Below are positions 1 through 10,042 of a stretch of DNA of 42,833 nucleotides, piece by piece. The translations under genes and the position numbers were made by a program. Origin of the DNA: Eubacterium sp. (GTDB lineage: Bacteria; Bacillota; Clostridia; Oscillospirales; Acutalibacteraceae); NCBI GenBank assembly GCA_022511185.1, contig JAFLSA010000004.1, positions 1 through 42,833 of the forward strand, given 5' to 3'. Positions within the stretch are counted from its first letter, which is position 1, and every line of letters begins with the position of its first letter. Under the pieces are notes generated by a model that did no database searches, was not told the DNA's origin, and worked only from the letters and a program-made list of their open reading frames with translations.

Positions 1-652
1 TGTCAATAATCAGATATTTAGGACAGCAGTATGTAACAAGATTTATAACGTGGAATTCATAACCTGTAATTCTCGGGTTATCTTCCTTCCTGTACTCACC
101 AATCTCGGTTATCAGCCTGCATACCTCATTATGAAGCTCAACTGCCTTACGCAGTGAATCGTCACTGATATCAACGCCGTAAACTTCATTAAGCTTATCA
201 AGTACCTTAAGCTTCATCTGATTTTTGTAATGCTTAATCGTATGAGGCTCTATTTTAAACGGAATATCGGCAATTGACACAAAGAACTTATCATTTTCAA
301 CAAGATTTAAAAGCTCAAAATACTCATAGCATCTGTTCATCTCCGAGCAGGATTCCGAGCCGATAAGAGCCGAAAGAAAATTATATCCGCCCTCGATCGC
401 ACGCTCTAAAAGCGCCTTTGAATATCCGCACAAAAATGAGCTGAGATAATACGTGGCAATATCCATTGAGCCTGTTCTCGGTGCTCTTAAACGAACTGAA
501 AAACAGTTATCAACATTGAGCAGTACCTCAGGGATATGATAACAGGTATAGGCGACAGCCTTTTTACCGTCTGAAACTGCCTGCTTTACAAGCTCGTTAT
601 TCGCCTCTTGAAGTAGGTTTTCAAAATAAATTAAATGCTTTAAATCCTTCAT
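1..652 (-). CDS. 2-hydroxyacyl-CoA dehydratase D-component-like (HgdB/BcrC family) protein, C-terminus cut by window edge
   Basis: Open frame on minus strand from ATG at 652 to the window edge, not in the supplied ORF track. Translation MKDLKHLIYFENLLQEANNELVKQAVSDGKKAVAYTCYHIPEVLLNVDNCFSVRLRAPRTGSMDIATYYLSSFLCGYSKALLERAIEGGYNFLSALIGSESCSEMNRCYEYFELL resembles the N-terminal part of this family. TAATG overlap with the upstream ATPase gene. Confidence 0.7.
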   Translation of the reverse strand, partial: MKDLKHLIYFENLLQEANNELVKQAVSDGKKAVAYTCYHIPEVLLNVDNCFSVRLRAPRTGSMDIATYYLSSFLCGYSKALLERAIEGGYNFLSALIGSESCSEMNRCYEYFELLNLVENDKFFVSIADIPFKIEPHTIKHYKNQMKLKVLDKLNEVYGVDISDDSLRKAVELHNEVCRLITEIGEYRKEDNPRITGYEFHVINLVTYCCPKYLIID

Positions 653-1413
653 TACAGCACCTCTATCTTTTCAAGTGCCTCTCTGACACCCTTTACTACG
701 TTTGACTCACCCGGGAGATTAAAAATATTTTCGCCCTGAATATCAAACATAGACAAATTTTTATCATCTGAAATATAGCTTAAAACCTCTATGCCGTTTG
801 TATCTATATAATCTTTAAGTGATTCGTCTGCCATACGGTTGACGATTGCGCCGATTTTTTCATACATAACAAGCTCGTCTGCAACGCTCTTGATTGTATT
901 GATTACCTGACAGCCCTTTTTGCTCGGGTCGGTTATAAGCAGAAGATGCGTAACCTTTTCCATAACTCTGCGGTTAATCTGCTCAATACCTGCCTCACCG
1001 TCAATTACAACGTAGTCAAACTCATTTGATAAAATAGAAATAACTTCTTTAAGATAAGAATTTATTTTGCAGTAACAGCCTGCCGTTTCAGGTCTGCCGA
1101 CAGCTATAAAGGAATAACCGTCAGTCTCAACAAGAGCATCAAAAATACGGTATTTTGCCTCACCTAAAAGTTCAATAGCACCTCTCGTATCACCCTCGTC
1201 AACAGATGCGATAATCTCTTTTCTTATGTCGTCAATAGTCATTTTGACGTCAATGCCGAGTGCGGTTGAAAGTCCGACAGCAGGGTCAGCATCAACTGCA
1301 AGAATTTTTTTGTCAGGATGCTTTTCTACCAGACAGCGAACAATCGTTGCGGAAAGTGACGTTTTGCCTACTCCGCCCTTGCCTGCAACGGCAATAATAG
1401 TTGTTTTATTCAT
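652..1413 (-). CDS. CooC-like MinD/ParA-family P-loop ATPase (metallocluster maturation type)
   Basis: Deviant Walker A GKGGVGKTS at N-terminus, DADPA, GRPETAGCYCKINSYLK (CxC motif typical of CooC), VVIDGEAGIEQ. Confidence 0.85.
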   Translation of the reverse strand: MNKTTIIAVAGKGGVGKTSLSATIVRCLVEKHPDKKILAVDADPAVGLSTALGIDVKMTIDDIRKEIIASVDEGDTRGAIELLGEAKYRIFDALVETDGYSFIAVGRPETAGCYCKINSYLKEVISILSNEFDYVVIDGEAGIEQINRRVMEKVTHLLLITDPSKKGCQVINTIKSVADELVMYEKIGAIVNRMADESLKDYIDTNGIEVLSYISDDKNLSMFDIQGENIFNLPGESNVVKGVREALEKIEVL

Positions 1414-7992: not shown

Positions 7993-9729
7993 TTAGCAGA
8001 CGTCGAAAATTCCGGGCATTGTGTCGTCGCGCACTGTGTCCTTTTGGTCACGGTTGATTGCGCATATAATACCCTTCATTGAGGCATAGCTGATATTGTG
8101 GCTTACACCGATACCGAAAACGTCCTTACCCTGTGGATTTTTAAGATGTATATAGCTGATAGCCTTTGAGTCACTGCCGACTGAGATAGCGTGCTCGCTG
8201 TAATCGACAAACTCATAGTCGGTGATACCGATTTCCTTAACAGCTGAGAAGAATGCACCGATAGGACCTGAGCCTGTACCCTCAATTTTCACCGGCTGAT
8301 TATCCTTATACTTAATCTCGCCTGTGAAATGAACGGAGGTCAGATAATTCTCCTCAGTCTTTTCTTCGCTGATTTTATAGTTCATAAGTCTGTAAGGACC
8401 GCAGACGTTTCTGTATTCTTTCTGGAACAAATCAAAGATTTCAGAAGTGTGAAGTTCCTTGCCCTTTTCGTCACAAGCCTTCTGTACTACTGCGCCGAAC
8501 TCAGGGTGCATAGCCTTCGGCATCTTGATACCGTACTCATTTGCAAGGATATATGCAGTACCGCCCTTACCGCTCTGTGAGTTGATACGGATAATCGGCT
8601 CGTACTCTCTGCCTACGTCAGCAGGGTCGATAGGAAGATAAGGCACCTCCCACATATCAGTGCCGCTTTCGTCCATATAAATCTTGCCCTTATTTATGGC
8701 ATCCTGATGAGAGCCTGAAAAGGCTGTGAACACAAGCTCACCTGCATACGGGTGACGTGGCGGAACCGTCATTTTTGTCGTTCTTTCGTAAACGTCTTTA
8801 ATCTTATTAATATCGTGGAAATCAAGCTCAGGGTCAACTCCCTGTGTCCACATATTGAGCGCAAGAGTAACTATATCAACGTTACCTGTTCTCTCACCGT
8901 TACCGAAAAGTGTACCCTCAATTCTGTCAGCACCTGCAAGCAAAGCAAGCTCAGCAGCGGCAACGCCTGTACCCCTGTCATTATGAGGGTGAAGTGAAAT
9001 AATAGCAGCCTCTCGGTTTGGTAAACGACGGCAAAAATATTCAATCTGGTCTGCATAGCCGTTTGGCGTTGAGCCCTCAACAGTTGACGGAAGATTAAGA
9101 ATAATCGGATTTTCCTTAGTGATATGAAGCTCCTCCATAACCTGACGGCAAATCTCAACTGCGTTATCCATTTCAGTTCCCGTAAAGCTTTCAGGACTGT
9201 ACTCAAAGCGGATATTCGTTTCAGGGTTCGACTTCTTCTGCTCCTCTGTAAGTTCATAGATGAGCTTTGCACCATTTACGGCAATATCAATTACGCCCTG
9301 CATATCCGTCTTGAAAACAACCTTGCGCTGAAGCGTTGAGGTTGAATTGTAAAAATGCACGATTACGTTTTTAGCGCCACTGATTGCCTCAAAGGTTTTC
9401 TTGATAAGATGAGGTCTTGCCTGAACAAGCACCTGAATAGTTACGTCATCAGGGATATATCCGCCGTCAATAAGCGTACGCAGAATTTCATACTCCGTTT
9501 CACTTGCTGACGGAAAGCCTACCTCAATTTCCTTAACACCGATATTAACGAGTGTTGAGAAAAGCTCGAGCTTTTCCTGTAAATTCATTGGGTCGACAAG
9601 CGCCTGATTACCGTCACGCATATCGACCGAGCACCATATAGGCGCCTTTGTGATAGTCTTGTCGGGCCATGTACGGTCCGGAATATTTATCGGCTTGAAG
9701 CCGACGTATTTTTCATACCCTTTTTTCAT
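7993..9729 (-). CDS. leuA: 2-isopropylmalate synthase
   Basis: DRTWPDKTITKAPIWCSVDMRDGNQALVDPM, LHPHNDRGTGVAAAELALLAGADRIEGTLFGNGERTGNVD. Confidence 0.95.
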   Translation of the reverse strand: MKKGYEKYVGFKPINIPDRTWPDKTITKAPIWCSVDMRDGNQALVDPMNLQEKLELFSTLVNIGVKEIEVGFPSASETEYEILRTLIDGGYIPDDVTIQVLVQARPHLIKKTFEAISGAKNVIVHFYNSTSTLQRKVVFKTDMQGVIDIAVNGAKLIYELTEEQKKSNPETNIRFEYSPESFTGTEMDNAVEICRQVMEELHITKENPIILNLPSTVEGSTPNGYADQIEYFCRRLPNREAAIISLHPHNDRGTGVAAAELALLAGADRIEGTLFGNGERTGNVDIVTLALNMWTQGVDPELDFHDINKIKDVYERTTKMTVPPRHPYAGELVFTAFSGSHQDAINKGKIYMDESGTDMWEVPYLPIDPADVGREYEPIIRINSQSGKGGTAYILANEYGIKMPKAMHPEFGAVVQKACDEKGKELHTSEIFDLFQKEYRNVCGPYRLMNYKISEEKTEENYLTSVHFTGEIKYKDNQPVKIEGTGSGPIGAFFSAVKEIGITDYEFVDYSEHAISVGSDSKAISYIHLKNPQGKDVFGIGVSHNISYASMKGIICAINRDQKDTVRDDTMPGIFDVC

Positions 9730-9774: not shown

Positions 9775-10042
9775 CCCCTATACGTTTAAGTATAGGGACG
9801 TAATCTCTACGTGGTACCACCCTATTTCAGCAGAAGAATCTGCCCTTTAGCATCTATCAATGCCTTTGCCTGTAACGCAGCAACACGGCTGTTCCTATTA
9901 ATTCCTATTCAAAACAGCAACTCTGCAGAGAGCTATACACCAAATAATTTGTATTGACTTACACCGACCGTCAACTCTCTTAAACTAAATCATAAGGTCT
10001 TTTTCTGCTTCATAGTCTTTGCTTGGGTACTATTAAATTGTA
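9775..10042 (-). ncRNA. T-box leader upstream of leuA, probably leucine-specific
   Basis: Minus-strand AGGGTGGTACCACG (plus 9810-9823) is the conserved T-box; followed by terminator hairpin GTCCCTATACTTAAACGTATAGGGG plus T tract (plus 9775-9799). AGAGAG bulge and GGTCGGTG apical element present upstream. By hand fold, a CUC (Leu) codon at 9930-9932 lies in an internal loop of Stem I. Confidence 0.92.

Follow-up and report, generated by a model that had tools for sequence, protein, structure and literature searches.

An AcsF/CooC-like ATPase gene at a contig edge begins a conserved six-gene operon encoding a predicted double-cubane reductase and an ACS-like protein in gut and other anaerobic bacteria

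The left edge of a 42,833-nucleotide stretch of DNA from Eubacterium sp. (GenBank assembly GCA_022511185.1, contig JAFLSA010000004.1), analysed here at full length and termed the window, raises the question of why a CooC-type ATPase should be encoded together with a protein of the HgdB/BcrC type. The two genes are located on the minus strand at 652-1413 and 2-652, where the stop codon of the former shares one base with the start codon of the latter (TAATG, written TGTAATGAAG), and a divergent gene is found at the operon start on the plus strand (1566-2495). The original prediction held that the locus continues beyond the window, and that the pair may constitute a metallocluster enzyme in which a MinD/CooC-type ATPase serves electron delivery or cluster assembly. 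Its description of the pair was confirmed in each respect: among PDB entries, the ATPase family matches CooC best (3kje, E 6e-20), with an alignment that spans the CxC motif, and the partial ORF at 2-652 matches PF06050 at 5.9e-42 in a profile search (model positions 1-171 of 342).

The window-edge pair is the beginning of a conserved six-gene operon, which occurs in gut and other anaerobic bacteria and encodes, in this order, the ATPase, two PF06050 proteins (HG1 and HG2), an ASKHA activator, a microprotein with a single transmembrane (TM) segment, and a protein resembling the A2 domain of acetyl-CoA synthase (ACS). The window represents an entire contig of the assembly (G000:C144), whose end interrupts HG1 after its N-terminal 217 aa (2-652, minus strand). 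As anticipated, the locus continues elsewhere: contig C32 of the same genome (4,302 bases) opens with PF06050 model positions 171-342 and carries the remainder of HG1 (L004 1-555), followed by the genes of HG2, the activator, the 52-aa microprotein, and the ACS-like protein in one shared direction. The ends of both contigs display an exact 10-base overlap (ATTATTGACA), and the joined HG1 of 398 aa is colinear with an intact gene from the same genus, to which it is equal in length and 90.5% identical. We infer the join from this overlap, the reading frame, and the synteny in relatives. Within the operon, neighboring genes either overlap or have at most about 15 bases between them, a terminator-like hairpin is situated 3' of the ACS-like gene (L004 3772-3798; 1 found versus 0.1 expected), and no promoter signal above chance was detected before the operon. 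In a literature search covering open-licence papers, we found no description of the operon or its gene combination, which thus appears to be undescribed so far as that literature goes.

A scan of the ATPase core against about 85,000 species genomes yielded at least 406 confirmed relatives, the best 80 of which were examined for their genomic context. All five profiled genes (ATPase, HG1, HG2, activator, and ACS-like) were present in 61 of these 80 loci, and 17 of the other 19 stop at a contig end shortly past the last visible gene. Since 78 of these best 80 loci either show the operon genes in an identical order or run into a contig end, the pairing of the ATPase with PF06050 proteins is conserved and cannot be ascribed to chance. 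The two exceptions are L063, where the activator and the ACS-like gene are absent nearby, and L088, where the ATPase stands alone. Among the same best 80, the locus names are mostly those of Clostridia, including Oscillospiraceae, Lachnospiraceae, Vallitalea, and Clostridium algidicarnis, plus a single Treponemataceae and a single Spirochaetales bin. In a sample of one family (Lachnospiraceae, by locus names), the ACS-like gene was found in 30 of 397 genomes, with the activator directly upstream in 28 of these 30; at one locus, L204, the activator is missing within about 1.5 kb. In the loci found with the ATPase core, a microprotein carrying the motif (I/V)Y(F/W)(F/W)NLD(M/Q)K or a near variant of it is encoded between the activator and the ACS-like gene.

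When a wider sample of the phylum was searched, the ACS-like protein proved rare, with 2 positive genomes among 399, and the ATPases of these two share 40% identity. The second positive genome (G306), related to that of the window at phylum level only, harbors the set in a different order, namely HG1, HG2, two activators, the ACS-like gene, and the ATPase, and no microprotein was seen at its locus.

The core of the operon can be assigned with some precision. PF06050 matches of 145, 167, and 150 bits (cut-off 28.4), the last belonging to the 513-aa HG2, place HG1 and HG2 in this superfamily. Cysteines 37, 75, 102, 270, 302, and 338 of HG1 are near-invariant (at least 63 of 64 sequences) and align with Cys 36, 73, 100, 263, 293, and 327 of BzdN, which have been named as the ligands of its [8Fe-9S] double cubane (PMC11971306). 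Three of these predicted ligands are encoded within the window on the minus strand, Cys37 at 542-544, Cys75 at 428-430, and Cys102 at 347-349, corresponding in the profile alignment to BzdN Cys36, Cys73, and Cys100, respectively. In HG2, Cys 181, 210, and 444 are invariant; Cys 181 and 444 align with Cys 95 and 380 of BzdO, and Cys 210 falls at or next to Cys 128, which is one of two adjacent cysteines (128/129). The AlphaFold model of HG2 (pLDDT 83.5) gives its best fold matches with the catalytic subunits BzdO, HadB, and MbdO.

The third gene after the ATPase encodes a canonical activator (TIGR00241, E 2e-62, 211 bits versus a cut-off of 125.4), whose two [4Fe-4S] cysteines are preserved in 64 of 64 (C129) and 63 of 64 sequences (C168). 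Such an activator nearby had been named beforehand as an observation that would speak against a MinD/CooC-type ATPase replacing the ASKHA protein in electron delivery. As it is encoded in the operon itself, just beyond the contig break and outside the window, ASKHA-free electron delivery by the ATPase was rejected. The notion of a metallocluster enzyme with a CooC-type ATPase is retained, with cluster assembly or maturation as its better half. What makes the locus unusual is encoded outside the window, namely the ACS-like protein and the TM microprotein.

In view of the cysteine positions, the fold matches of HG2, and the ASKHA activator, the core resembles BzdNO, and a double cubane is predicted in HG1 and a catalytic [4Fe-4S] cluster with three cysteine ligands in HG2. 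Like BzdNO(PQ) and MbdONQP, the operon combines two PF06050 subunits with an ASKHA activator, and each of the six [8Fe-9S] cysteines of BzdN has a counterpart in HG1, as has each of the three [4Fe-4S] cysteines of BzdO in HG2. It differs from both in that its common form possesses a single activator gene rather than two, in the N-terminal extension of HG2 (about 160 aa), and in the additional genes for the ATPase, the TM microprotein, and the ACS-like protein, and it stays far below all bzd/bcr cut-offs. The double-cubane proteins DCCP/DCCP-R (6eno, 7yyl) are alike in the six-cysteine site and the single ASKHA-type activator, whereas DCCP is a homodimer and the operon is predicted to form a heterodimer with a catalytic-type HG2; the DCCP equivalog NF040772 reaches merely 52 and 95 bits with the two halves of HG1 and 51 bits with HG2, against a cut-off of 350. 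Because the equivalogs for bzd/bcr and HadBC (TIGR03190, TIGR02263, and NF052456) likewise score far below cut-off, family membership does not reveal the substrate; the precedent of the family would suggest a CoA thioester or a small molecule whose reduction takes place at very low potential.

The 253-aa ATPase, encoded by the first gene of the operon (652-1413, minus strand), combines overall similarity to the nickel-insertion ATPase CooC with a deviant Walker A motif, which spans residues 11-18 (GKGGVGKT, 1360-1383) and is invariant in its clade, and with the CxC of GRPETAGCYC (residues 113-115, 1069-1077), corresponding to the metal-binding motif of CooC. C115 is kept in 65 of 65 sequences and C113 in 64 of 65. 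A tree that also contained AcsF-like and CooC-like genes of CO dehydrogenase (CODH)/ACS clusters groups the operon ATPases in a separate clade, supported at 96/91 with G306 included, and CooC proper branches apart at 100/100. The clade is hallmarked by the signature EAG[IV]EQ[IV]NRR, located in the window ATPase at residues 140-151 (EAGIEQINRRVM, 961-996, minus strand), in place of the EH or EN..R of CODH-linked ATPases. This motif agrees with the neighboring genes: among the extra loci examined, ATPases with EQ[IVL]NRR adjoin PF06050 or operon genes with one exception, a second copy in G071 (L117), whereas the EH/EN ATPases often adjoin CODH or ACS genes and were never observed beside PF06050 genes.

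A relative on a long branch, bearing EQLNRR, resides inside a benzoyl-CoA-reductase-like cluster (L130), and the link between EQ-type ATPases and PF06050 reductases may therefore be wider than the six-gene operon. This cluster (G570:C2, 9992-19901) contains several PF06050 pairs, two ASKHA genes, and a small ferredoxin-like ORF in addition to the CooC-like ATPase, and no ACS-like gene was seen in the 20 kb read.

The last gene encodes a protein of 231 aa that matches PF03598 (CdhC) at 2e-7 (31.4 bits versus a cut-off of 24), and in sequence profile alignments it covers ACS residues 324-481, which correspond to the A2 domain. The only significant fold matches of its AlphaFold model (pLDDT 90) are with ACS (E 8e-11). 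A low-stringency profile-profile alignment against nine AcsB sequences (97% probability) runs into the motif C206-x2-C209-x5-C215 and places it on the C-x2-C-x8-C of the A-cluster [4Fe-4S]. This alignment lies at the end of the homologous domain in a poorly modelled region (residues 202-205 with pLDDT below 50), and the putative correspondence of the cysteines to the A-cluster is the weaker part of the argument; the three cysteines themselves are invariant in 65 of 65 sequences. Compared with AcsB/CdhC (about 710 aa), the protein thus shares the fold and sequence of A2 and a CxxC..C at the ligand position, and lacks A1 and the rest of A3, its chain ending before the fourth [4Fe-4S] cysteine and the CGC nickel site. 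Pairwise BLASTP against ACS returns E values of about 0.05-0.1, so that this piece of ACS, too diverged for a simple BLASTP search, is easily missed.

Taken together, the six genes are best accounted for, in our judgement with somewhat better than even confidence, by an ATP-driven double-cubane reductase that is accompanied by an AcsF/CooC-type maturase. The ASKHA activator, presented as a homodimer with one bridging [4Fe-4S] cluster, would accept a low-potential electron from ferredoxin and, upon ATP hydrolysis, drive it into the HG1-HG2 heterodimer, where the [8Fe-9S] double cubane of HG1 would store the electron and the three-cysteine [4Fe-4S] cluster of HG2 would be catalytic, as in BzdNO. 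The ATPase would be a maturation factor rather than an electron donor and would load a metal, most likely nickel, via its CxC motif. Its target is probably a metal site, perhaps containing nickel, on the ACS-like subunit, which would offer three of the four A-cluster [4Fe-4S] ligands and is tentatively taken as the most likely client by analogy with AcsF and ACS. The microprotein may conceivably tether the complex to the membrane.

Nickel is tentatively suggested as the likeliest metal by the homology of the ATPase, although certain observations count against it, since profile searches of 52 operon genomes yielded neither HypB nor NiFe-hydrogenase nor CODH in 22 of them, and the ACS-like protein has no CGC. 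HypB exceeded the cut-off in 29 of the 52 genomes and the large subunit of NiFe-hydrogenase in eight, and 20 genomes possess HypB without CODH or NiFe-hydrogenase. In some Lachnospiraceae, an IsrA-like FAD/FeS oxidoreductase of about 940 aa is encoded downstream of the operon (L064, L067, L068, L070, L087, L093, and L096), together with HypA in all of these loci except L087, which reaches a contig end, and HypB just precedes the ATPase in three of them (L068, L070, and L087). Such a cassette is known from the isoprene reductase operon, and among 988 IsrA-type homologues 73% lie near HypA and 56% near HypB (PMC10134865). In other genomes the oxidoreductase and HypA/HypB form a separate cassette elsewhere, and they are absent beside most operon loci. 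The HypA/HypB genes were consequently downgraded as direct proof of nickel, as they travel with the IsrA-like cassette and HypB did not exceed the cut-off in 23 of the 52 operon genomes; the context is nevertheless compatible with this metal. In the window's genome, HypB and HypA follow NuoE/F/G-like (HydABC-like) genes (L097, G000:C125, 4939-10407), and contig C24 gives a match to the large subunit of an Ech-like NiFe-hydrogenase.

Among the alternatives, the one that survives best, as a possibility to which we would give roughly a quarter of our credence, is that the ATPase acts on the Fe-S clusters of HG1/HG2 as an additional factor for maturation or redox supply and that the ACS-like protein is an accessory subunit for CoA binding or docking without metal chemistry. 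The A2 domain of ACS is the part proposed to bind CoA, and the L130 cluster, in which an EQxNRR ATPase stands beside PF06050 pairs and two ASKHA genes without an ACS-like gene in the stretch read, hints that it may be the PF06050 enzyme with which this type of ATPase is constantly associated. The L130 ATPase, however, forms a very long branch whose placement is open, and the invariance of the ACS-like cysteines suggests a metal site. Moreover, BzdNO produced in E. coli from a bzdNO plasmid still carried the [8Fe-9S] cluster in the absence of such an ATPase (PMC11971306). A dedicated ATPase is thus not generally needed for double cubanes, which renders the ACS-like subunit the more attractive client, and a dedicated double-cubane maturase has been retained as a rival only.

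It is rather improbable that the operon encodes an ordinary 2-hydroxyacyl-CoA dehydratase or benzoyl-CoA-reductase-like enzyme, acting on a CoA substrate, with minor accessory genes. The core subunits and the activator do belong to that family, and (R)-2-hydroxyisocaproyl-CoA dehydratase (HadBC/HadI) is alike in fold and activator type, but every NCBIfam equivalog of characterised members remains far below cut-off, HG1 displays the six-cysteine pattern of double-cubane proteins, while two of these positions are occupied by other residues in HadC, and the three extra genes are conserved in order over dozens of species, which is atypical for minor accessories. We know of no CooC-like ATPase accompanying HadBC/HadI.

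The weakest proposal, that the ATPase works for a CODH/ACS from elsewhere in the genome and owes its neighborhood to coincidence, draws on the CooC/AcsF homology and was rejected as hardly credible, because a search of the window's genome (91% completeness) gave no Prismane/CODH match, which refutes it there, CODH exceeded the cut-off in only 2 of the 52 operon genomes, both of which have separate CooC/AcsF-type genes at or near CODH, and the operon ATPases, in a clade of their own, keep their gene order in dozens of loci beside PF06050 rather than CODH/ACS genes. A link to the activation complex of methyl-coenzyme M reductase was also considered and set aside, as CooC and ACS are unmentioned in its paper and the ATP-driven idea alone is common.

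The operon brings together, in one conserved unit, components of two ancient systems of anaerobes, namely the double-cubane reductases driven by ATP and the nickel system of ACS/CooC. Should the ATPase and the ACS-like protein turn out to be a metal-loading pair, a CooC-type maturase would be present in the PF06050/ASKHA reductase superfamily, for which we know of no earlier example, and an as yet undescribed low-potential reaction would be expected in roughly 8% of the sampled Lachnospiraceae genomes (30 of 397). A far bolder reading, to which we attach only a slim chance, is that the double-cubane reductase acts on a nickel centre of the ACS-derived [4Fe-4S] subunit, constituting a route of nickel-carbon chemistry besides CODH/ACS and methyl-coenzyme M reductase. 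It could then support, for instance, CO, methyl, or acyl transfer in anaerobes without CODH/ACS, and the operon would become a candidate for the CODH activity and acetogenesis of 'Candidatus Galacturonibacter soehngenii', a member of the Lachnospiraceae in which no CODH/ACS genes were found by BLASTP (PMC7000372). A search of that type would probably overlook the ACS-like protein.

Several minor observations concern the surroundings of the operon and of the window. A second HG1/HG2-like pair follows the operon directly on the opposite strand in L094 (15588-18403), and in L099 (G071:C19, 9692-15897) HypB, an IsrA-like oxidoreductase, and a second HG1/HG2 pair are arranged in a row, and another contig of that genome (G071:C35, L129) encodes a further EQVNRR ATPase without PF06050 genes. 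PorA/PorB-like genes (pyruvate/2-oxoacid:ferredoxin oxidoreductase) are located within about 10 kb in L059, L060, L063, L066, L073, and L075. Elsewhere in the window, a T-box leader (RF00230, 120 bits; 9791-10022, minus strand) precedes a leuA-like gene (7993-9729).
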